NCBI RefSeq assembly: GCF_026210795.1
Contig: NC_089436.1
Coordinates: 4,154,001-4,218,000, forward strand
DNA length: 64,000 bases
Direction of reading: 5' to 3'
From: Rhizophagus irregularis
Taxonomy: Eukaryota > Glomeromycota > Glomeromycetes > Glomerales > Glomeraceae
The stretch's first letter is position 1. Each line of letters starts with the position of its first letter. The position numbers were made by a program, and so were the translations under genes. The notes beneath the pieces were generated by a model, which worked only from the letters and a program-made list of their open reading frames with translations, ran no database searches and was not told the origin of the DNA. Positions 4,917 through 54,900 of the stretch are shown in pieces.

Positions 4917-6433
4917 TCATTGCTTTTTAATTTGAAATACTTCATAATCTTCCATAGAAAATTTATCTGGTGTTTCCCTTATCTCTTTTTCATAATAACA
5001 CTTTCTACACCAACTATTAGTGTAATCTACAGATTCGCTATAAGCCCCTATAATAATGTCACTGCCAAAATAGGGACCAACTGTACTATTATACAATATT
5101 GCATATTCCTCATATTTTACATTGCTAATAATTGCATCTTTAATATTCTTATCTTTGAAAGAAAAAATAAAACTTTCTTTAGTTTTACTCCAAGTACCAC
5201 GATTAGGAGATTCCCATTTTAAAGGATTATATCCACCAATAATTTCTTCTGTTCCTCTTATTTTAATAAAAGTAATAGTATTATGTTTGCCATCACATAA
5301 TTCATGAAATTTTTTAGGAGTAAATCCATCTCGGCTTCCTCTTAATAATAATTCAAATTTATATTCATTTACATTAGCAAATTTTTTGTCAACTGTTTTA
5401 TCAATCCAACTTGAAATCGTTGAAACAATACCGGAATCAACTATCTGTGAATCGATGATTTGAGCGGTATTTTTAAGTGGTGGCGATCGTGTGACTATTT
5501 TTCTAGGACGTAATACGTTATAAATTGATACACTATCGGGGTCCAAATAAGAGTTTAATAATTCTTCATAGAATTGATTACTTAAAAGTTTTTGATATGG
5601 TCGAACTTTATATGTAAATTCTTTAGATGATAAACAAAAAAATCTAACTAAAGGTATACAATTTTGTAGAGTAACTTTCATTTTCTTAAAATCATCATCT
5701 GTCCAAGTAATAGGATCCGGAATTAAGGTTGAATTTTGTGCAAGACCCCATTTTAAAATATTTTCCCATACTTCAACCTCATTCATTTGTAAATCATCTC
5801 TTTTAATAAGTGAAATTAAAGATTTTTCAGAAAGTGAGGTAAAATCAAATGATTGAAACACTTTTTCAGGAGATTGAACCATTAAATTTGTACAAAATTC
5901 TTGAAGCTCTGATAAATTATTAGATCGTGAACTTATTTGTTGAGTAAATTCAAAATGTTGTTCCATCCACTCAGATTTATTTTCAATTAAATATTTTTGT
6001 AAATAATTAACTAGTTCTTGAAGACAAAGTTCATCTGCAGCTACCAAAATTTTAAGAAAGTCTAAAGTATCTTGGCCATCCAACGAAAGAATACCACCAT
6101 ATATGTATCTATAATAAAAATTTTATAAATATTGGAATTAAAATTATCTTTTATATAATATATTAAACTTATAACTTACTCTAAAATAATTTGAAATATT
6201 TCCGGTGATATATTTGGTAATTTAATATGAACCAAAAAGTTGTCGTTATTCCTTTTATTGGAAGCCAAATTTCGTTGTAAATATGGAGAACGGTAACACA
6301 AAATGTTCATATGGGCACGAAATATTTTTACGTTAGGATCTTCACCAACTTCAATTGTAACATCATAATATTTATCATCTTTCAATAATTCAATATAGTT
6401 TTGACTTAATTTTGAAAGAAATTGGGTAGACAT
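4917..6433 (-). CDS. BTB-BACK-TLDc domain protein (2 exons, 481 aa)
   Basis: Two exons, 6433-6180 and 6108-4917, join across a 71-bp GT-AG intron (donor gtaagt, acceptor ttatag) and restore the frame as ...IILEYIYGG. The start is the ATG at 6433 (MSTQFLSKL); the open frame extends upstream but without family similarity. Domains: BTB about 20-115, with YYDVTIEVGE and FRAHMNILCYRSPYLQ; BACK about 125-225; TLDc about 315-478, with LLLRGSRDGFTPKKFHELCDG, IIGGYNPLKW and the terminal EDYEVFQIK. Family knowledge: BTB domains recruit Cullin-3 ligases, and TLDc domains occur in oxidation-resistance and V-ATPase-binding proteins. BTB-TLDc proteins are hugely expanded in Rhizophagus. It is divergent from the kinase gene at 6817, with 383 bp between start codons. 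All domains look intact. Confidence 0.9.
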
Positions 6434-6629
6434 TTCGTTTTTTTTTTTAAAAAAAAAGGATAATTCAGTATTTATAATTATTTTGGATATGGCCAAATTT
6501 GTACAGTGCATTACGCCAATCTGCGGCTTGTTCCACCATAAATTTTCATTTATGTAAACTCCTCCGTGATTGACGATCACTATTAAAATTGACCCGGCAT
6601 ACGAACTTGGCTGATTACGACATTACGGC

Positions 6630-6816: not shown

Positions 6817-9800
6817 ATGAGTGGCATGGAATGTGAAATTTGTAGCAAAAAGTATACAATGGTGTTTTCTAAATGGTGTAAACAATGCGAAACAAATAAA
6901 TTAAGAAAAAATTTTACAAACTGGACTAGTGGAAATGAGAAAATTGATAATTTTATCCAAGAAAAACAATTAGAGATTAATAACTCATGGAATATTGTAT
7001 TTGAATGGATACCATATAATAAATTTCTTGACATCAAAAAAGTAGATAAAGATGATATTTCTACAATATACTCGGTAAAATGGGAAGATGGTCCATTAGA
7101 GTGGAATAATTATAGTAAAAAATATATAAGAAACCCAAAGGAAGTTGAATTTAAAGAATTAAAATTAAAATATTCACATAATTTACAAAATGTTGTTGAA
7201 TTTCTAAATGAGGTAAAATTATTTTATTTGAATTGAAATTCACTTTTAATATAATACTAATTTAAAATTATTTTGTATTTTATAGATTAAAGTATATTCA
7301 ACTAATTTCGAGATATTTGGCATATCTCAAAATCCACATACAAAGGATTATATTATAGCTTTACAAAATAATTATTCTTACTGTATAAAATGTAACTATA
7401 AGTATACTAATATAATCCAAGAATGGTGTAAACAATGTGAAACAAATAAGTTAATTACAAACTGGACTAGTGGAAATGAGAAAATTGATAATTTTATCCA
7501 AGAAAAGCAATTAGAGATTTATAGCTCACGGAATATTGTATTTGAATGGATACCATATAATAAATTTCTTGACATCAAAGAAGTAAATAAAGATGATATT
7601 TCTACAATATATTCGGCAAAATGGGAAGATGGTCCATTAAAGTGGAATAATTATAGTAAAAAATATATAAGAAACCCAAAGGAAGTTGAATTAAAAGAAT
7701 TAAAATTAAAATATTCACATAATTTAGTTGTTGAATTTCTAAATGAGGTAATTTTATTGAATTGAAATTCACTTTTAATTAATACTAATATATTATTTTG
7801 TATTTTATAGATTAAAGTAACTAATTTTACGATATTTGGAATATCTCAAAATCCAGATACAAAGGATTATATTATAGTTTTGCAGAATTATTATCATTAC
7901 TACTGTATAAAATGCAGCAATGGTATAATCCATGGGTGGTGTAAACAATGTGAAACAAATAAATTAAAAAATTTTACAAACTGGAGTAGTGGAAATAAAA
8001 AAATTGATAATTTTATCCAAAAAAGGCGATCAAAAATTAATAACTCATGGAATATTGTATTTGAATGGATACCATATAATAAATTTTTTAACATCAAAGA
8101 GGTGAATAAAGATGATTTTTCTGCAGTATATTTAGCACAATGGAAGGACGGTCCATTATATTGGGATAAAAATAGTAATAAATATATAAGAGAACCAGAA
8201 AAGGTTGCTTTAAAATGTCCATACGATTCACAAAATATTGATAATTTTTTAAATAAGGTACGAAATTTTTCTACTAAATAGAAATTCATTTTATTATAAT
8301 AATTTGTTGTTTTGTATTTAATAGGTTTAAATATATTTAATGAAAATTGAAATATATGGAATATCTCAAAATCCAAATACAAAGGATTATATTATGGTCT
8401 TACAAGATAAGAATTATTGTTTAATATGTAATTATAAATATAGCGATATAAATTGTAAATGGTGTAAACGATGTGAAACAAATAAATTAATTACAAACTG
8501 GACTAGTGGAAATAAAAAAATTGATAATTTTATCCAAGAAAAGCAATTAAAGATTTATAACTCACGGAATATTGTATTTGAATGGATACCATACAATCAG
8601 TTTAGTGAAATTAAAGAAATAGGAACACATGATCATATTACAGTATATTCAGCAAAATGGAATAATGGCCCGTTAATGTATGACGCAAATATAAGGAAAT
8701 ATAAAAGAACTCCAGATGCGTTAGTTAGATTTAAATGTCTATTGTTTAAGCAGGAGTCATTAACATTTTTCGAAAACCTACTATTATTATTTAAGGAGCA
8801 AAATACAACTAATGAATTCTTAAATAAGGTATGAAAATTTTATAAACCTAATTTACTTGGTTCTTTTTTAATATTCAGTAGCATTTTTTCTTTTTTACTT
8901 TAATAGATTAAAAGATATTTTATGGTAAATAGTAATAAGATATATGGAATATCTCAAAATCCAAATTCAAAAGAATATTTAGTTATTCTTAATGGTGGTT
9001 GTGTAAAGTGTGGTGAAATATATACTAATATATTATATGGATGGTGCAATCTGTGTCATATAAGTTCTTTTAAAAATAATTTTGTAAATTGGAGTAGAAA
9101 TGAACTAATTGATAATTTCATTCAAAAAATGAAATTAAAAATTAAAAAATATGATGATATAATATTTGAATGGATACCATACAATCAGTTTATTAATGTT
9201 AAAAAAATAGGTCAAAATAATTTTACTACAATATATTTAGCAAAATGGGAAGATGGTCCATTAGAGTATAATATAAATACAATGCAATATGAAAGGGATC
9301 CAAACAGAGCAATTACTTTAAAATGTTTAAATAATACACGAAATATGATCAATGAATTCTTGGACAAAGTATGTATACATAAATTTAATTTACTTGATTT
9401 ACTTATAACTGATAATAATAATTATTTATCTGTCTTATATTATTAATAGATTAAAGTAAATTCAATAGTGAAGGGAAGTAATGTTCTTAATAATATATAT
9501 GGAATCTCTCAAAATCCTGATACAGGTAATTATATTATGGTTCTCCATGGCAAATATTTTGAAAAATATTTTGAAGGACATTGTATAAAGTGTGATAAGA
9601 TATATACAGATATACGTAATAAATGGTGTAAACCATGTCAAATAGATTATTTTAAAAAATTCTTTACTAGTATAAACAAAGAAATTGATAATTTTATTCA
9701 AGAAATGCAATTGAAAATCAATAATCATGATGATATAGTATTTGAATGGATACCATACAATCAGTTTAATGATATTAAAAGAATAGGTAAAGGTGGTTTT

Positions 9801-10892
9801 GCTACAGTATATTCAGCAATATGGAAAGATGGTTTATTAAAGTATGATATAAATAAAAACCAATATATAAGAAATTTTGATACAAAAGTTGCTTTAAAAT
9901 ATTTATATAATTCTCAAAATATTACCAGTGAATTTCTCCATGAGGTACAGTATGTAATTTTTCTATAAATAAACTAGTACAGTACTTTATATTGTATAAT
10001 AATCAATTTTTTTTTTCATTAGGTTAAAGCTTATTCAATAAATAATTCTGGTAAAATACTTAAAGTTTATGGAATATCACAAGATCCAAACACAAAGGAT
10101 TTTATCATGGTTCTTCAATATGCAGAAGGTAGAAACTTTGATTATTGGATATATAACAATTACAAATATTTTAATTGGTCAACTAAATTAAAAATATTAA
10201 ATGATATTATTAGTGGCCTTAAAGAAATCCATCAAAAACAAATGGTTCATCATGATTTTCATGTAGGAAATATATTATTTAATGAAATTTTTGTAATTTC
10301 TTCAAATATTAAAATATATATTTCAGACATGGGATTGTGCAGAGAAGTTGGTAATGTAGATAAAACAACTATTTATGGGGTTATGCCTTATGTGGCGCCC
10401 GAAGTATTAAGAGGAAAACCTTATACTCTAGCGTCAGATATATATAGCTTTGGAATGATTATGTATTTTGTAGCAACGGAAAAACAACCTTTTGCTAACT
10501 GTGCTCATGACGAACTTTTAGCATTAGATATATGCAAAGGAATTAGACCCGAAATAAATGAGTCTGAGGCACCAAAATGTTATATTGATTTAATGAAAAA
10601 GTGTTGGGATACAGATCCTAACAATAGACCAGATGCTATTAAAGTAGAAGATTCTATTAGATTCTTATATAATTCATATTTTGGTCATAGTTCAATTAAC
10701 AAAGATTATGAAATTGAGAAACAATTCAAAGAAGCAGAGACATATAGAAGAAATAATCTTTCATTTTTTAAATATAGCCAGTTAGATACTCATCCACAAG
10801 CTATTTATACATCTCGGTTACTTAATCCATTCACTAAAGTTCTTGAAAAGTATGATAAATCTGAATGTTTGGAATGTGAAATTATAAATTAG
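6817..10892 (+). CDS. Multi-N-lobe kinase: six ribbon/N-lobe modules, one kinase C-lobe (7 exons)
   Basis: Exons 6817-7212, 7286-7747, 7811-8257, 8325-8828, 8907-9368, 9450-9944 and 10023-10892 are all phase 0, with introns of 63-81 bp. Exons 2-6 repeat one unit: a beta4-beta5/hinge piece (YGISQNP..KDYIMVLQ), a Cys-x2-Cys...Trp-Cys-x2-Cys ribbon, an IDNFIQ motif, then EWIPYN and a kinase N-lobe ending just after the alpha-C Glu. Exon 1 is the same without the hinge piece. Exon 7 carries the C-lobe: HHDFHVGN, SDMG, VAPEVLRG, DIYSFGM, and the family tail QTHPQAIYTSRLLN. Only exon 6 has a normal glycine loop (GKGGFATVYSA) and VALK; exon 3 also keeps VALK. All six ribbons keep four Cys. An in-frame TAA (8328-8330) follows the exon 4 acceptor, and an ATG at 8340 could restart translation, so this may be two genes of three modules each. 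Confidence 0.75.
8325..8342 (+). other. In-frame stop at an exon junction, followed by possible restart ATG
   Basis: The acceptor aatag ends at 8324. The expected frame then reads gtt taa, giving a stop at 8328-8330, and the frame-matched ATG is at 8340. Sister exons start attaaag at this point. Reading through exon 3 into the intron also stops at 8279-8281. The upstream transcript could thus encode three modules without a C-lobe, and the downstream one three modules plus the C-lobe. Confidence 0.6.
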
Positions 10893-11513: not shown

Positions 11514-13362
11514 ATGGGTATGAAAATATCAAAAATGAATCCTAAAAAAAATAAAAGAAATTTATGGAAAAAAAGTGTTGATAATGATAAATATCAGGTA
11601 AAACAATTCATTTTGTCACTTAATAATATAACATTATTGAATTTTTAATTTGAATAATAATGTTTTTTTAAATCATTTATTTTAAAAGTTACATGTTACA
11701 ATTTCTACTATTGGTTCAACTACTGAATCAGCAGAAGAGATAGTTTATATGGAAGATTTAGAAAAAAGAAAACAAGTATATGGAATATGTGGAGAATGTA
11801 ATGAACCTGGTACAGGATGGTGTTGGTGTCAACCTTGTAATGCTAAAAGATTTAAAGATAACTTTAAAAATTGGACTAGTGGAAATAAAGATATTGATGA
11901 ATTTATACAACAATCACAACTTAATGCTGTGTATTATGGAAAATATCTTGAATGGATACCTTTTGAAAATTTTAAAGATATTACTTATATTACCAGAGGT
12001 GGATTTGGTAAAATCTATTCAGCTGAATGGCCTGAAGGATCTATTAGTTTCTGGGATATTGAAAATCAAAAATGGAAAAGGTATAGCAGAAAAGTTGCAT
12101 TAAAAAGTTTGGACAATTCATCTTGTATAAGTGCAGAATTTTTAAATGAGGTAATTAAAATAAGAAATGTAATCTATTTACTTTTATTTTTATTTATGTA
12201 TTACTTATAATATTAAAAATTTTCACTTTCAATATTTTCATTAGATTAAAACTCATCTTCAGATTTATCTTTATAATGTTATTCAATGTTATGGAATAAC
12301 TCAAGATCCAAATACCAAAGATTATATGATGGTTTTAGAATATTGTGAAGATGGAAATTTGAGAAATTACTATCTCAATAATGAATCAGATTATTATTCA
12401 AAAATTGAAGAATTACAAAAAATTGCAAGAGGACTTTTAGACATTCATAATGCTGGAAAAGTTCATAAAGATTTTCATTCAGGGAATATATTACTTGGTA
12501 GGTATACACTTATAAGTGATTTAGGAATGTGCCAACCAGCAAATAATGAAAAGCAATCAGATAAACAAGAAGGAATTTATGGAGTATTACCTTACATGGC
12601 ACCAGAAGTTTTACGTGGATATCAATATACAAAAGAATCTGATATTTATTCATTTGGAATAATGATGAATGAATTTATATCTGAAGAAACTCCTTATAAT
12701 AATATTCCTCATAATCATGCTTTATCTATTAAAATATGTAAAGGACTTAGACCAAATATTTTTAAATATACACCAAAATTACTTGCAGATTTGATTACTA
12801 AATGTTGGGATGCTAAAGCAGACAATAGACCAACTGCTAAAGAATTGTATCAAACATTAAATAAATGGAAAAATAATAAATATGATGATAGTGATATTAA
12901 ATCTTTTAAATCTCAAATGAAAGAGTATAATGATAAAATCAAATTAAACAGAACAAGTGAAAAAAGAGCTAACAACATTCAAACACATCCACAAGCAATC
13001 TATACTAGTAGACTTTTAAATTTCAAAAATCTTCCAGAACCAGTAAATTCAGGTAATTAATTTAACTTTACTTTGGTAACCAAAAAAAATGTTTACATTA
13101 CTAATAACTTTATTTTTTAATAGATGCTACTAAAACAACATTACGTAAGTAATTATTTGTAACCAATATAATAAATAAATCTTTATATTGTTTTAATATC
13201 ATGTTAATTAATTTATAGGTTCAGAATGTTTGGATTGTCAATTAGACGAATTAGGTAAAGATATTTATTCTATAGTTCTTTATTTTGCTAATACTTATTA
13301 ATTTACTTATTTTTGTAGATCTTAACGAAAGTGATCAAGATGAAGAAAATAATACTGAATGA
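11514..13362 (+). CDS. Kinase A: Cys-ribbon protein kinase, 484 aa, 6 exons
   Basis: Exons 11514-11597, 11689-12150, 12245-13052, 13124-13144, 13219-13254 and 13319-13362; frame and splice sites agree throughout. The first 28 residues come from a separate exon starting MGMKISK, which fits the N-myristoylation pattern (Gly2, Ser6) plus lysines. A ribbon follows (Cys 62, 65, 75, 78), then EWIPF, glycine loop GGFG at 132-135, Lys 167, and alpha-C Glu 182 just before an intron. The C-lobe has HKDFHSGN (Asp 258, Asn 263), SDLG in place of DFG (Asp 274) and APE at 301-303. HRD is HKD, but the catalytic Asp and Asn are present, so activity is plausible. The tail carries QTHPQAIYTSRLLN, SECLDC and an acidic end. 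A clade typical of Rhizophagus; substrates unknown. Confidence 0.88.
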
Positions 13363-15944: not shown

Positions 15945-17780
15945 ATGGAATTATCAAAAATGAATCCTAAAAAAAATAAAAGAAATTTATGGAAAAAAAG
16001 TGTTGATAATGATAAATATCAGGTAAAACAATTCATTTGTCACTTAATAATATAACATTATTGAATTTTTAATTTGAATAATAATGTTTTTTTAAATCAT
16101 TTATTTTAAAAGTTACATGTTACAATTTCTACTATTGGTTCAACTACTGAATCAGCAGAAGAGATAGTTTATATGGAAGATTTAGAAAAAAGAAAACAAG
16201 TATATGGAATATGTGGAGAATGTAATGAACCTGGTACAGGATGGTGTTGGTGTCAACCTTGTAATGCTAAAAGATTTAAGGATAACTTTAAAAATTGGAC
16301 TAGTGGAAATAAAGATATTGATGAATTTATACAACAATCACAACTTAATGCTGTGTGTTTTAATAAATATCTTGAATGGATACCTTTTGAAAATTTTAAA
16401 GATATTACATATATTACCAGAGGTGGATTTGGTAAAATCTATTCAGCAGAATGGCCTGAAGGATATATTTATTCTTGGAATATTGAAAATCAAGAATGGG
16501 TAAGGTATAGCAAAAAAGTTGCATTAAAAAGTTTGGATAATTCATCTTGTATAAGTACAGAATTTTTAAATGAGGTAATTAAAATAAGAAATGTAATCTA
16601 CTTACTTTTATTTTTATTTATGTATTACTTATATTATTAAAAATTTTCACTTTCAATATTTTTATTAGATTAAAACTCATCTTCAGATTTATCTTTTTAA
16701 TGTTATTCAATGTTATGGAATAACTCAAGATTTAAATACCAAAGATTATATGATGGTTTTAGAATATTGTAAAGATGGAAATTTGAGAAATTACTATCTC
16801 AATAATGAATCAGATTATTATTCAAAAATTGAAGAATTACAAGAAATTGCAAGAGGACTTCTAGATATTCATAATGCTGGAAAAGTTCATAAAGATTTTC
16901 ATTCAGGCAATATATTACATAAAAATTATCCACTTATAAGTGATTTAGGAATGTGCCAACCAGCAAATAATGAAAAGCAATCAGTTAAACAAGAAGGAAT
17001 TTATGGAGTATTACCTTATATGGCACCAGAAGTTTTACGTGGATATCAATATACAAAAGAATCTGATATTTATTCATTTGGAATAATGATGAATGAATTT
17101 ATATCTGAAGAAACTCCTTATAATAATATTCCTCATAATCATGCTTTATCTATTAAAATATGTAAAGGACTTAGACCAAATATTTTTAAATATACACCAA
17201 AATTACTTGCAGATTTGATTACTAAATGTTGGGATGCTAAAGCAGAAAATAGACCAACTGCTAAAGAATTATATCAAACATTATTTGAATGGCATAATAG
17301 TAAAAATAAAGAAGATAATGATACCAAATCTCAAATAAATGAATATGATGATAAAATCGGATTAAACAGAACAGATGAAAAAAGATCTAATAACATTCAA
17401 ACACATCCACAAGCAATATATACTAGTAGACTTTTAAATTTCAAAAATCTTCCAGAACCAGTAAATTCAGGTAATTTAATCTTTGATAACCAAAAAAAAG
17501 TTTACATTACTAATAACTTTATTTTTTAATAGATGCTACTAAAACAACATCAATACGTAAGTAATTATTTGTAACCAATATAATTAATAAATCTTTATAT
17601 TGTTTTAATACTATATAAATTAATTTATACTAGGTTCAGAATGTTTTGATTGTCAATTAGATGAATTAGGTAAAGATACTACTTATTCTTTGGTTCTTTA
17701 TTTTGCTAATACTTATTAATTTACTTATTTTTGTAGATCTTAACGAAAGTGATCAAGATGAAGAAAATAATACTGAATGA
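15945..17780 (+). CDS. Kinase B: Cys-ribbon protein kinase, 481 aa, 6 exons
   Basis: Exons 15945-16022, 16113-16574, 16669-17470, 17533-17556, 17634-17669 and 17737-17780, with the same phases as kinase A. The N-terminus is MELSKMNPKK: it lacks the Gly2 of A and C because the six bases that add MG are absent. Ribbon, GGFG, VALK, HKDFHSGN, SDLG and MAPE are all present, so it should be as active as A. Differences from A cluster in short patches: after LNAV (CFNKY), after WPEG (YIYSW), after GNIL (HKNYP), and in the region after the kinase domain (FEWHNSKNKED). It lies 4,424 bp from the matching point of A in the same orientation, a tandem duplicate. Confidence 0.88.
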
Positions 17781-26793: not shown

Positions 26794-28634
26794 ATGGGTA
26801 TGAAAATATCAAAAATGAATCCTAAAAAAAATAAAAGAAATTTATGGAAAAAAAGTGTTGATAATGATAAATATCAGGTAAAACAATTCATTTTGTCACT
26901 TAATAATATAACATTATTGAATTTTTAATTTGAATAATAATGTTTTTTTAAATCATTTATTTAAAAGTTACATGTTACAATTTCTACTATTGGTTCAACT
27001 ACTGAATCAGCAGAAGAGATAGATGATAAAATAGTTTATATGGAAGATTTAAAAAAAAGAAAACAAGCATATGGAATATGTGGAGAATGTAATGAACCTG
27101 GCACAGGACTAAAATGGTGTCAACCTTGTAATGCTAAAAGATTTAAGGATAACTTTAAAAATTGGACTAGTGGAAATAAAGATATTGATGAATTTATACA
27201 GCAATCACAACTTAATGCTGTGCATTATATGAAATATCTTGAATGGATACCTTTTGAAAATTTTAAAAATATTACTTATATTACCAGAGGTGGATTTGGT
27301 AAAATCTATTCAGCAGAATGGCCTGAAGGATGTATTACATATTGGAATATTGAAAATCAAGAATGGGTAAGGTATAGCAAAAAAGTTGCATTAAAAAGTT
27401 TGGATAATTCATCTTGTATAAGTACAGAATTTTTAAATGAGGTAATTAAAATAAGAAATGTAATCTACTTACTTTTATTTTTATTTATGTATTAGTACTT
27501 ATATTATTAAAATTTTCCACTTTCAATATTTTCATTAGATTAAAACTCATCTTCAGATTTATCTTTATAATGTTATTCAATGTTATGGAATAACTCAAGA
27601 TCCAAATACCAAAGATTATATGATGGTTTTAGAATATTGTGAAGATGGAAATTTGAGAAATTACTATCTCAATAATGAATCAGATTATTATTCAAAAATT
27701 AATGAATTACAAGAAATTGCAAGAGGACTTCTAGACATTCATAATTCTGGAAAAGTTCATAAAGATTTTCATTCAGGGAATATATTACTTGGTACTTTTA
27801 CACTTATAAGTGATTTAGGAATGTGCCAACCAGCAAATAATGAAAAGCAATCAGTTAAACAAGAAGGAATTTATGGAGTATTACCTTATATGGCACCAGA
27901 AGTTTTACGTGGATATCAATATACAAAAGCATCTGATATTTATTCATTTGGAATAATGATGAATGAATTTATATCTGAAGAAACTCCTTATAATAATATT
28001 CCTCATAATCATGCTTTATCTATTAAAATATGTAAAGGACTTAGACCAAATATTTTTAAATATACACCAAAATTACATGCAGATTTGATTACTAAATGTT
28101 GGGATGCTAAAGCAGAAAATAGACCAACTGCTAAGGAATTGTATCAAGAACTTGAGGTTAATTTTTTTTATGAAGATTCCTCTCAGAGAAAGGAATATAA
28201 CGATAAGATCAAATTAAACAGAACAAGTGAAAAAAGATCTAGCAACATTCAAACACATCCACAAGCAATCTATACTAGTAGACTTTTAAATTTCAAAAAT
28301 CTTCCTGAACCAGTAAATTCAGGTAATTTAATCTAACTTTACTTTGGTAACCAAAAAAAAGTTTACATTACTAATAACTTTATTTTTTAATAGATGCTAC
28401 TAAAACATCATCATTACGTAAGTAATTATTTGTAACAAATATAGTTAATAAATAAATCTTTATATTGTTTTAATATTATGTTAATTAATTTATAGGTTCA
28501 GAATGTTTTGATTGTCAATTAGACGAATTAGGTAAAGATATTTATTCTTTAATCCTTTATTTCGCTAATACTTATTAACTTATTTTGTAGATCTTAACGA
28601 AAGTGATCAAGATGAAGAAAATAATACTGAATGA
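26794..28634 (+). CDS. Kinase C: Cys-ribbon protein kinase, 481 aa, 6 exons
   Basis: Exons 26794-26877, 26968-27441, 27539-28322, 28394-28417, 28496-28531 and 28591-28634. The N-terminus MGMKISKMNPKK equals that of A and fits an N-myristoylation site. Exon 2 carries four extra residues (IDDK) before VYMEDLKKR. The ribbon reads CGEC...KWCQPC, and GGFGKIYSAEW, VALK, HKDFHSGN, SDLG and MAPE are intact. The segment after the kinase domain is the most divergent of the set (ELEVNFFYEDSSQRK). The reading frame is fully open despite the split promoter block, which suggests it is still expressed or was disrupted recently. Confidence 0.88.
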
Positions 28635-42705: not shown

Positions 42706-44526
42706 TCATTCAGTATTATTTTCTTCATCTTGATCACTTTCATTAAGATCTACAAAATAAGTATATTAATAAGTATTAGCAAATTAAAGAACTAAACAAT
42801 AAATATCTTTACCTAATTCATCTAATTGACAATCAAAACATTCTGAACCTATAAATTAATTTATATAGTATTAAAACAATATAAAGATTTATTAATTATA
42901 TTGATTACAAATAATTACTTACGTAATGATGTTGTTTTAGTAGCATCTATTAAAAAATAAAGCTATTAGTAATGTAAACATTTTTTTTTAGTTACCAAAG
43001 AAAGGTTAAATTAGATTACCTGAATTTACTGGTTCTGGAAGATTTTTGAAATTTAAAAGTCTACTAGTATAGATTGCTTGTGGATGTGTTTGAATGTTAC
43101 TAGTTCTTTTTTCACTTGTTCTGTTTAATTTAATTTTATCATTATATTCATTTACTTGAGATCTAATATCAACATTCTTAAACTTACATTCATCTAATTT
43201 TTGATACAATTCTTTAGCAGTTGGTCTATTTTCTGCTTTAGCATCCCAACATTTAGTAATCAAATCAGTAAGTAATTTTGGTGTACATTTAAAAATATTT
43301 GGTCTCTGTCCTTTACATATTTTAATAGATAAAGCATGATTATGAGGAATATTATTATAAGGAGTTTCTTCAGATATAAATTCATTCATCATTATTCCAA
43401 ATGAATAAATATCAGATGCTTTTGTATATTGATATCCACGTAAAACTTCTGGTGCCATATAAGGTAATACTCCATAAATTCCTTCTTGTTTAACTAATTG
43501 CTTTTCATTATTTGCTGGTTGGCACATTCCTAAATCACTTATAACTGGATATACTCCATATAATATATTGCCTGAATGAAAATCTTTATGAACCTTTCCA
43601 GCATTATGAATGTCTAGAAGTCCTCTTGCAATTTCTTGTAATTTATCAATTTTTGAATAATAATCTAATTCATTATTGAGATAGTAATTTCTCAAATTTC
43701 CATATTCACAATATTCTAAAACCATCATATAATCTTTGGTATTTGGATCTTGAGTTATTCCATAACATAGAACAACATTATAAAGATAAATCTGAAGATG
43801 AGTTTTAATCTAATGAAAATATTGAAAATGAAAATATAAGTAATACATAAATAAAAATAAACATTTCTTATTTTAATTACCTCATTTAAAAATTCTGTAC
43901 TTATACAAGAAGAATTGTCCAAACTTTTTAATGCAACTTTTGTATTACTATTCCTTTTCCATTCTTGATTTTCAATATCCCAAGAATAAATACATCCTTC
44001 AGGCCATTCTGCTGAATAAATTTTGCCAAATCCACCTCTGGTAATATAAGTAATATCTTCAAAATTTTCAAAAGGTATCCATTCAAGATATTTAAGAAAA
44101 TGCACAGCATTAAGTTGTGATTGTTGTATAAATTCATCAATATCTTTATTTCCACTAGTCCAATTTTTAAAGTTATCCTTAAATCTTTTAGCATTACAAG
44201 GTTGACACCATTTATATCCTGTACCAGGTTCATTACATTCTCCACATATTCCATATACTTGTTTTCTTTTTTCTAAATCTTCCATATAAACTATTTTATT
44301 ATCTATCTCTTCTGCTGATTCAGTAGTTGAACCAATAGTAGAAATTGTAACATGTAACTTTTAAAATAAATGATTTAAAAAAACATTATTATTCAAATTA
44401 AAAATTCAATAATTTTATATTATTAAGTGATAAAATGAATTGTTTTACCTGATATTCATCATAATCAAAACTTTCTTTCCATAAATTTCTTTTATTTTCT
44501 TTAGGAATCATTTTTGATAATTTCAT
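42706..44526 (-). CDS. Kinase D: Cys-ribbon protein kinase, 482 aa, 6 exons
   Basis: Minus-strand exons 44526-44449, 44357-43881, 43809-43020, 42946-42923, 42848-42813 and 42749-42706, with the same phases as A-C. The N-terminus is MKLSKMIPKENK, without the MG extension. Exon 2 includes IDDK, as in C. The ribbon is CGEC...KWCQPC; GGFGKIYSAEW, VALK, HKDFHSGN, SDLG and MAPE are present. Differences cluster after LNAV (HFLKY), after GNIL (YGVYP) and after the kinase domain (DECKFKNVDIRSQ). This is the only inverted copy, about 16 kb beyond C, and its unit carries two insertions that the other copies lack. Confidence 0.88.
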
Positions 44527-51966: not shown

Positions 51967-54900
51967 TTAATTATTGTTCAACACTTTGTTCCAGTCAACT
52001 AAATATAATAAAGCATAAAATATTAGTTCAATACTATATCTTAATAAGTAAAGAATTATACTATACTACTTACCGTGCAAACTTGAAAAGGATTGAACAT
52101 ATTCAAAAGATTCGTCACTAGCTTGTGATTGCGAAGTTGCATTATCATTATCCATAATAATAAACATTCCATTTTATTTTTAACAATATATTATTGGTAT
52201 AAATAAATATATAAATATGAATAATAAATAAATACCCTTGACTAATTTGCTTGTAACATCATTTACAAAACCCATTTTTTTAAATTCATCTAATATTTCA
52301 TTAATAGTTGGTCTTTGTTTGGGTTCTTGATTCCAACAATTTCTATAGAGATTTTCATATTCTTTAGGAGTACCAAAAACTGTAGCCTTATGAATATTAA
52401 TAATAGGAAAAATAATATTACTATTATCTGGAGGCTTTCCTCTAGAAATTTCCCACATCAATACACCAAAGCTATAAATATCTGAAGACTTGGTATATTC
52501 AAAATTTGGATCAATAAAACGGTTTGGCTCCATATAAGCAATAACACCAAAATTACCAACATAAGCTGTTGAAGCTAAACTATTTTGATTTTTTGAAATA
52601 CCAAAATCCGTGATTTTAACATTACTTTCATGAATAACTATATTTTTAGAATGCTAGGAGAAAATAAATTAGATAAATACATTATTATTACTAGTACTAT
52701 TATTATATAAAGAATAACTACTTAAATACTACTTACAAGATCTCTATGCAAAATATTTTCATTGTGTAAGTAATTTAATCCATCAGCAATTTGAAATGCT
52801 AATTTTTTCTTATCATTCCATGTCAAATTCTCAAAATTATTTTTGAGATAATTTTGGAGATCTCCGTCATTAGCATACTCCATAATAAGAAGATATTCAT
52901 TTGTTTTTGGTTCTAAAAAAAAAAATTTATAGGAAGTTAAAAAAAATAACAAAAGATACAATGCAAAAAAATATATCAATTACCTAAACTGATACCAAAG
53001 CAACGTATAATTCTGTCACTATAATTAAGGTGCAAATGCATTTTTAGTTCATGAATAAATGCATCTAACAAATCATTCTTAATATAAGTTGTATTAGTCA
53101 ATTTTTTACAAATTACATAATTATTAGTCTTAATCCAAATTGCTTTTGATATTTTTCCAAACCCCCCTGCCTGAAGTGGCTCTACCTTTTTTAGTTCTTT
53201 ATAAGATATAAATTTAACTTTTTCATACTTTAATGCTTTTTCAATCCATTCGGATGCACTTAAAACTCCATTTTCTGCTCTTTGAAACCAATAAATAGAT
53301 TTTTCCAAATCTTTTTCTACTCCTTTACCAGTCTTATAAAGAAATCCAAGTTTATACTGTGCATCATTAATTCCTTGTTGAGCTGCTTTTTCATACCAAC
53401 AACAGGCTTTTTCTATATTCTTTTCTGTTCCTATTCCATTTTCATAACATGTGGCTAAATTAAACCATGCAACATTATCACCATGTTCTGCTGATTTTTG
53501 ATACCAATAAAAGGCTTTTTCTAAATTAATTCCTGTTCCATTCCCCCTTTTATAAAATAAGCCTAAATAATTCATTCCAACTTTATTACCATTTTCTGCT
53601 GCTTTTTGATACCAATAAAAAGCTTTTTTGAAATCTTTTGCTGTACCTTCTCCATTTTTATAACATTCAGCAAAATAAACCATTGCATTTATATCATCAT
53701 TTTCTGCTGCTTTTTGATACCAATAAAAAGCTTTTTCGAAATTCTTTTCTGTTCCTACTCCTTTTTTATAACATTCGGCTAAATAAACCATTGCAACTAT
53801 ATCACCATTTTCTGCTGCTTTTTGATACCAATAAAAGGTTTTATCTAAATTCTTTTCTGTACCTTCTCCATTCTTATAACATATGGCTAAATCAAACATT
53901 GCAACTTTATTACCAGTTTCTGCTGCTTTTTGATACCAATAAAAAGCTTTTTCTAAATTCTTTTCTGTCCCTTTTCCATTTTTATAGCATATGGCTAAAT
54001 CAAACATTGCAACTTTATCACCATTTTCTGCTGCTTTTTGATACCAATAAAAGGCTTTTTCTAAAACCTTTTCTGTATTTTCGTAAAATATGGATAAATT
54101 AAACATTGCAGCTTTATCACCAATTTCTGCTGCTTTTTGATACCAATAATAGGCTTTTTCTAAAACCTTTTCTGTACCTTCTCCATTTTCGTAACATATG
54201 GCTAAATTAAACATTGCAACTTTATTCCCATTTTCTGCTGCTTTTTGATACCAATAAAAGGCTTTTTTTAAATTTTTTTCTACTCCTTCTCCATTTCTAT
54301 ATCTGTTGGCTAAATTATTCATTGCTCTAATATAATCTTTATCCGCTGCTTTTTGATACCAATAAAAGGCTTTTCCTAAATTCTTTTCTGTTCCTTCTCC
54401 ATTTTCATAACACATGGCTAAATTAAACATTGCAATTTTATCACTATTCTCTGCTGCTTTTTGATACCAATAAAAGGCTTTTTCTAAATTCTTTCCTGTT
54501 CCTTTTCCATTATTATAACATATGGCTAAATTAATCATTGCAACTGTATCGCCATTTTCCGCTGCTTTATGATACAAATAAAAGTTTTTTTCTAAAGTTT
54601 TTTTATTTTCATAATTTGTAGCTAAATTAAATATTTCAACATTATCACCATCTTTTGCTGCCTTTTGATACCAATAAAAAGCCTTTCCTAAATTCTTTTC
54701 TGTTCCTTCTCCATTTTCATAACATGTGGCTAAATTAAACATTGCAACTTTATCACCATTTTCTGCTGCTTTTTGATACCAATAAAAGGCTTTTTCTAAA
54801 TTCTTTTCTGTTCCTTCTCCGTTCTTATAACATACAGCTGAAATATACATTGCAACTTTATCACCATTTTCTGCTGATTTTTGATACCAATAAAATGCTT

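Follow-up and report, generated by a model that had tools for sequence, protein, structure and literature searches.

A kinase gene of Rhizophagus irregularis, at positions 6817-10892 (forward strand) of the window, is a now interrupted member of a large gene class in which tandem modules of the kinase N-lobe precede a single C-lobe. The window is the whole stretch of 64,000 nucleotides analysed (C8:4154001-4218000), part of an assembly of 146.7 Mb in 32 contigs. We regard the N-lobe array architecture as very probably real. Our overall explanation, to which we give a probability of roughly one half, is that a chain of dead N-lobes would serve as a docking or recognition surface ahead of one TKL-like kinase.

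The window gene exhibits seven exons, every one of a length divisible by three, separated by GT..AG introns of 63-81 nt. These boundaries agree with the seven consecutive phase-0 exons described in an earlier note on this DNA.

6817..7212, forward strand: exon 1, start ATG, ribbon CEIC..CKQC (6832-6888), IDNFIQ helix, EWIPYN, N-lobe b1-alphaC with degenerate Gly loop VDKDDIST; terminal residue Glu
7213..7285, forward strand: intron 1, 73 nt, GTA..TAG
7286..7747, forward strand: exon 2, module 1 b4-b5 (FGIS), ribbon CIKC..CKQC, module 2 N-lobe with loop VNKDDIST; terminal residue Glu
7748..7810, forward strand: intron 2, 63 nt
7811..8257, forward strand: exon 3, module 2 b4-b5, ribbon CIKC..CKQC, module 3 N-lobe with loop VNKDDFSA; terminal residue Lys
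8258..8324, forward strand: intron 3, 67 nt
8325..8828, forward strand: exon 4 (by phase-0 splicing), b4-b5, ribbon CLIC..WCKRC, N-lobe with loop IGTHDHIT, an in-frame stop; terminal residue Lys
8328..8330, forward strand: in-frame TAA, codon 2 of exon 4 (exon start GTT TAA ATA TAT TTA ATG)
8829..8906, forward strand: intron 4, 78 nt
8907..9368, forward strand: exon 5, b4-b5, ribbon CVKC..CNLC, N-lobe with loop IGQNNFTT; terminal residue Lys
9369..9449, forward strand: intron 5, 81 nt
9450..9944, forward strand: exon 6 (last module), module 5 b4-b5, ribbon CIKC..CKPC, N-lobe with intact Gly loop IGKGGFAT (9783-9806), VALK from 9888; alphaC Glu at the end
9945..10022, forward strand: intron 6, 78 nt
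10023..10892, forward strand: exon 7, b4-b5, hinge and sole C-lobe with HHDFHVGN (10248-10271), SDMGLC (10323-10340) and APEV (10395-10406); stop TAG

As the earlier note had described them, exons 2 to 6 each contain a hinge strand, a Cys ribbon, IDNFIQ, EWIPYN and an N-lobe. All these elements are seen in the translations, the b4-b5 segment reading YGIS or FGIS and the ribbon showing two CxxC pairs. The CxxC..CxxC zinc-ribbon sequence motif is present in 6/6 modules of the gene. The repeat unit runs, as was also proposed, from the intron behind alphaC to the next alphaC, each copy's hinge being fused to the ribbon that follows it. The statement that six exons end after the alphaC Glu has to be amended: Glu ends exons 1, 2 and 6, and Lys ends exons 3, 4 and 5. 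At the nucleotide level, a 272-nt direct repeat occurs in six copies, five of them 63-96% identical to the reference copy. Tandem Repeats Finder returned no row for the window, because its longest period is 500 and the units lie 517-588 nt apart.

Given these splice sites, the TAA at 8328-8330 cuts the window chain after module 3. The sole later AG within reach as an alternative acceptor for exon 4 ends at 8384, inside b4-b5, and lacks a pyrimidine tract.

That the usual gene of the family has one such module is borne out by four ordinary relatives in the window.

11686..13060 (about), forward strand: ordinary kinase, one ribbon and N-lobe exon, one C-lobe exon
16185-17475 (about), forward strand: ordinary one-module kinase
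27055-28324 (about), forward strand: ordinary one-module kinase
43018-44270 (about), reverse strand: ordinary one-module kinase

In the first of these (splice modelled), the intron occupies the same alphaC point as in the array genes. The ordinary ribbon-kinases share the ribbon, the IDxFIQ helix, EWIPY, the N-lobe and the C-lobe with the arrays, but possess one N-lobe module where unbroken arrays have 3 to 21. Two fragments of another kinase at 52276-52913 (reverse strand) exhibit weak C-lobe profile matches (64 and 52 bits), with no accompanying match to an N-lobe module of the array family. Open frames on the opposite strand (4917-6622), immediately upstream of the array gene, appear BTB-like by eye. 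BTB-type proteins are named as an expanded family of R. irregularis in the sections of PMC8647823 considered here.

The assembly was searched at the protein level with one ribbon-less and one ribbon module as queries, taking the best 150 of 4442 and the best 150 of 4523 first-look candidates. After five first-module or partial matches were left out, at least 295 fused hinge-plus-N-lobe exons in at least 120 clusters on at least 24 of the 32 contigs were found among the matches listed; these counts are lower bounds, biased toward well-preserved exons. Among the same matches, 58 clusters contain two or more exons and 62 contain one, and internal stops occur in 2 of the 295 exons. Contig C16 (4.9 Mb) carries 40 of the 120 clusters. 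A DNA search with the window gene revealed one relative of 87% and one of 88% identity covering most of the gene, as well as about thirty further places (grouped by eye) among the matches listed. Since the same architecture recurs genome-wide, the window array is beyond chance, and since the array is not unique in the assembly, the multi-module idea survives the broken window copy. The array of the earlier note is thus real; its picture of a single odd gene gives way to a class spread across the genome, which has a second module type and reaches 21 modules in unbroken genes.

This second type lacks the ribbon and accounts for 111 of the 180 full exons at the loci examined. Both types are mixed in three arrays (L004, L025, L026). 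In 63 ribbon-type exons, one ribbon Cys is invariant and the three others are conserved at 90% or more. Near-identical units, some of which occur here, make arrays difficult to assemble, so that repeats might have been collapsed or falsely chained. Such an artefact is nevertheless hardly credible, in view of the fused exons on at least 24/32 contigs, of at least 105 ribbon-less exons with only 52-83% protein identity to the query exon, and of a last module that is specific to its position.

Gene models were built with profile HMMs and splice rules from 31 stretches plus two long arrays on contig C2. The rules yielded 35 models, two of them single-module; the 33 multi-module models and the two C2 arrays make up the 35 arrays read. 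Every rule is passed by 15 of the 33. L004 fails the ATG rule alone in the later modelling, having passed the earlier one, and is open by eye. Including L004 and a C2 gene of 21 modules, 17 of the 35 multi-module arrays are unbroken. Their N-lobe modules number 3, 3, 4, 5, 5, 5, 5, 8, 9, 10, 11, 11, 12, 13, 13, 14 and 21, followed in each by one C-lobe; the predicted product of the 21-module gene is 2983 aa long. This gene occupies about C2:1368170-1379020, an intact gene of 14 modules lies within C16:3490000-3499800, and an intact five-module sister of the window gene is located at about C13:396900-400510. Eleven arrays are clearly broken (the window gene, L001, L003, L005, L010, L014, L016, L021, L028, L029 and a C2 array of about 25 modules). 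In L017, L025 and L026 the rules failed to locate a splice site, and the start was not found or not reached in L011, L020, L027 and L031.2. The C-lobes of the 35 arrays exhibit HxD in 31, DxG in 35 and an APE-like motif in 32 cases. The HxD exceptions are L031.2, which reads HRN, and L016, L020 and the 25-module C2 array, where the motif was not found; none of the 17 unbroken arrays lacks HxD or DxG.

The introns of the modelled arrays begin with GTA in 163/163 cases and end with TAG in 150, partly by construction of the models. In-frame read-through is possible for none of the 163. The branch-point motif CTRAY is not enriched in them (19/163, compared with 29.4 in shuffled introns). The exons of an intact gene would be joined in one mRNA and probably yield one long polypeptide.

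The arrays might also be by-products, growing by unequal exchange and then decaying, with functionless internal modules tolerated in front of a working kinase. The 11 clearly broken arrays and a recent block duplication in the 21-module gene are what such a history would leave behind. On the other hand, 17 of the 35 arrays are unbroken, and the 14 arrays chosen as intact would be expected under neutrality to have received about 183 stops, a lower-bound figure from a test that the choice of intact arrays makes unclean. In the duplication (L032/L034, C2:1360400-1379400), a block of several modules is repeated at a distance of about 4.3 kb, and the same unusual 245-nt intron is present in both copies, which points to a recent unequal exchange.

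The modules of an array are not equivalent. From the 35 models, 220 of 248 N-type pieces were aligned, the other 28 being truncated, motif-less or split. The second Gly of the Gly loop is found in 31/32 last modules, 6/157 internal modules and 2/29 first modules (last versus internal, Fisher p = 2e-28, a test that treats paralogues as independent, which is untrue). The b3 Lys is present in 32/32 last, 147/157 internal and 26/29 first modules, and Glu closes the exon in 28/32, 124/157 and 22/29, respectively. When nearest neighbours were sought for 181 of the 213 non-first pieces, a last module had the last module of a different array as its neighbour in 28 of 29 cases, and an internal module had an internal one in 144 of 152. 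The grouping of last modules with last modules suggests that the split of roles seems to predate most of the expansion.

The distribution of the Gly loop also bears on a reading by alternative splicing, where one N-lobe exon would be selected for splicing to the C-lobe exon, or the chains made would differ in length. The exons are phase 0, symmetrical and multiples of three, with introns at the same alphaC point, so that any skip keeps the frame; skipping of exon 4 would thereby avoid the window stop. However, with the Gly loop mostly confined to the last module (31/32 against 6/157), a single N-lobe picked from the array would in most cases yield a dead kinase, and the internal exons retain at their start a b4-b5 segment that is needless for a one-of-many choice. 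We consider alternative splicing quite unlikely as the explanation of the arrays. Mutually exclusive splicing of equivalent N-lobes is unlikely given the Gly-loop pattern.

The last module and C-lobe of the window gene exhibit the full kinase set: IGKGGFAT, VALK, Glu, HHDFHVGN, DMG and APE. Exon 7 matches the Pfam families Pkinase and PK_Tyr_Ser-Thr at about 1e-30, and exons 6 and 7 joined match positions 4-254 of the 258 of PF07714 (E-value = 3.6e-38). Among solved structures, the C-lobe exon is best matched by RIPK1, STK17B, Roco4 and MLT. The last module with the C-lobe is thus recognised as a protein kinase (PF07714/PF00069), whereas the internal modules have no C-lobe and have mostly lost the second Gly. 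Three internal modules joined in native register gave no kinase match in Pfam, and a PDB profile search with an internal module gave none either, the best hit being an aminopeptidase (E-value = 0.41). The chain of N-lobe pseudodomains before a catalytic unit, as first proposed for the window gene, agrees with the Gly-loop pattern for the class; for the window copy itself it holds less well, given the in-frame TAA in exon 4.

In alignment, internal and last modules are plainly homologous. AF2 models were made for single exons, where b4-b5 stands without its native partner. For a ribbon-less exon, b1-b3 and alphaC are modelled at pLDDT 78-95 per ten-residue block and b4-b5 poorly, as expected if b4-b5 belongs to the preceding module. 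In the ribbon exon modelled (exon 3, 7811..8257), pLDDT is 61-69 for b4-b5 and 45-52 for the ribbon. With the ribbon-less model, the 50 matches listed by VIA-align are all protein kinases, the top Z of 5.8 over 66 residues lying in the range that the tool calls common. Foldseek listed 41 kinase domains and 9 other proteins among 50 matches to the first model, with weak E-values (0.29 and worse), and mixed matches with non-kinases on top, again at weak E-values, for the second. A kinase N-lobe fold is favoured by the confident b1-b3/alphaC core and the VIA-align matches, but not by the Foldseek E-values; the internal modules may fold as separate N-lobes.

Substitution rates were compared between sister genes in five pairs, using reciprocal-best, collinear and unbroken exons (18 internal, 5 last and 5 C-lobe pairs). 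The pN/pS ratio is lowest in the C-lobe (0.26), intermediate in the last N-lobe (0.50) and highest in the internal N-lobes (0.63). Within arrays it amounts to 0.68 for exons shorter than 145 aa, most of them ribbon-less (421 pairs), and to 0.76 for longer exons (154 pairs). Neutral simulation with the base composition of the introns gave 1.05-1.29, with 7.4-7.7 stop hits per module pair. The array is the fastest evolving part of the gene, yet is under some constraint. Comparison with the introns speaks against strong constraint: 358 close pairs taken from within arrays have a pN of 0.136 and a pS of 0.176, where introns diverge by 0.127; for internal modules between sister genes, the corresponding values are 0.0575, 0.0917 and 0.0565.

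The fast internal modules (0.63) and a pN about equal to intron divergence are compatible with the by-product reading. Against it stand a pN/pS below that of the neutral simulation and the constraint on the helix block SGNEKIDxFI, the most constrained of all (0.28; 0.39 in the long, ribbon type). Overall we judge it rather unlikely that the internal modules are functionless by-products.

Other blocks evolve much faster than the helix. The alphaC-b4 link (first ten codons) is fast in both module types (pN/pS 1.30 and 1.36), and the b2-b3 loop reaches 1.28 in the ribbon-less type. A conserved executor behind a faster array with such blocks would suit an immune or non-self decoy, where the dead N-lobes would resemble those of genuine kinases and trap foreign proteins directed against kinases, an event then reported by the terminal kinase. 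Such a role is proposed for plant tandem kinase-pseudokinases (TKPs) in the consulted portion of PMC6170490. Blocks near 1.3 are no proof of positive selection, however, because the neutral simulations themselves reach 1.05-1.29, so that the fast blocks equal or slightly exceed the top neutral value. Moreover, the b2-b3 loop of the ribbon type gives 0.81 and 0.90, while one other block of this type reaches 1.39. A decoy function specifically is in our opinion unlikely.

Returning to a docking or recognition surface ahead of one kinase, the origin of such chains may be read from the exon junction. The alignment of 9 tandem exons in full and the consensus of 106 and 63 exons place it just behind b5, at the hinge. 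The simplest inference is one founding fusion followed by spread via intron exchange: the hinge of one two-exon kinase would have joined the N-terminal region of the next with deletion of the C-lobe between them, and later unequal exchange between introns would have multiplied the fused exon. The ribbon-less modules may be derived from the ribbon modules. At one locus (L031, C5:5253600-5258000, reverse strand), a degenerate whole kinase at 1160-2236 in coding orientation joins an N-lobe array in one frame. Its C-lobe reads HRN instead of HRD and GLG instead of DFG, and it is a possible fusion intermediate; the C-lobe closing the array likewise reads HRN.

The product of an intact gene would be one long protein with 2 to 20 N-lobes followed by a competent N-lobe and a C-lobe. 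The upstream N-lobes would have lost the ATP-gripping Gly loop and mostly kept the b3 Lys and alphaC Glu, and the last N-lobe, with its complete loop, would form with the C-lobe a competent TKL-like kinase, presumably capable of catalysis. The dead N-lobes would offer a multivalent surface for docking or recognition, at which partners are gathered or sensed; candidates are other N-lobes, kinases or foreign proteins, and binding would control the terminal kinase. For the docking or recognition role taken by itself, our confidence is tentative.

The C-lobe and last N-lobe of the arrays match nearly the full domain of TKL-type kinases (RIPK1, Roco4, MLT, B-Raf). We know of no tandem N-lobes in these relatives, and, as far as we are aware, such an N-lobe array architecture has not been described. 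No description of N-lobe kinase arrays was found in the open-access literature searched, and no relatives were detected by tblastn in prokaryote genomes and viral contigs, a search that says little about other fungi. The expansion of PF07714 kinases in R. irregularis is reported as gene number, not as N-lobe arrays, in the part of PMC6123716 considered, and such arrays are not described in the relevant sections of PMC6123716, PMC8647823, PMC8778642, PMC10197012 and PMC6170490. Plant TKPs (WTK1/Yr15, RPG1) and Janus kinases resemble the arrays in having a degenerate kinase part beside a competent kinase (PMC6170490, in part). However, they consist of whole kinase domains, whereas the arrays repeat the internal N-lobe only, many times. 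Two whole kinase domains in tandem, which define a TKP, are not found in the arrays: each array read has one C-lobe, except L031.

With some hesitation, we suggest that the arrays represent a new class of signalling proteins, in which a repeated half-kinase would act as a fast-evolving sensor or scaffold, variable in copy number, on a conserved kinase. As the Pfam searches made here did not recognise the internal modules, similar arrays may have gone unnoticed in other places. Should the chains be produced, a kinase N-lobe would be able to exist as a free repeat module, although it is normally inseparable from its C-lobe. This would be a new way of building kinase signalling proteins, and the kinase expansion of arbuscular mycorrhizal fungi, so far unexplained, would gain a concrete content open to testing.
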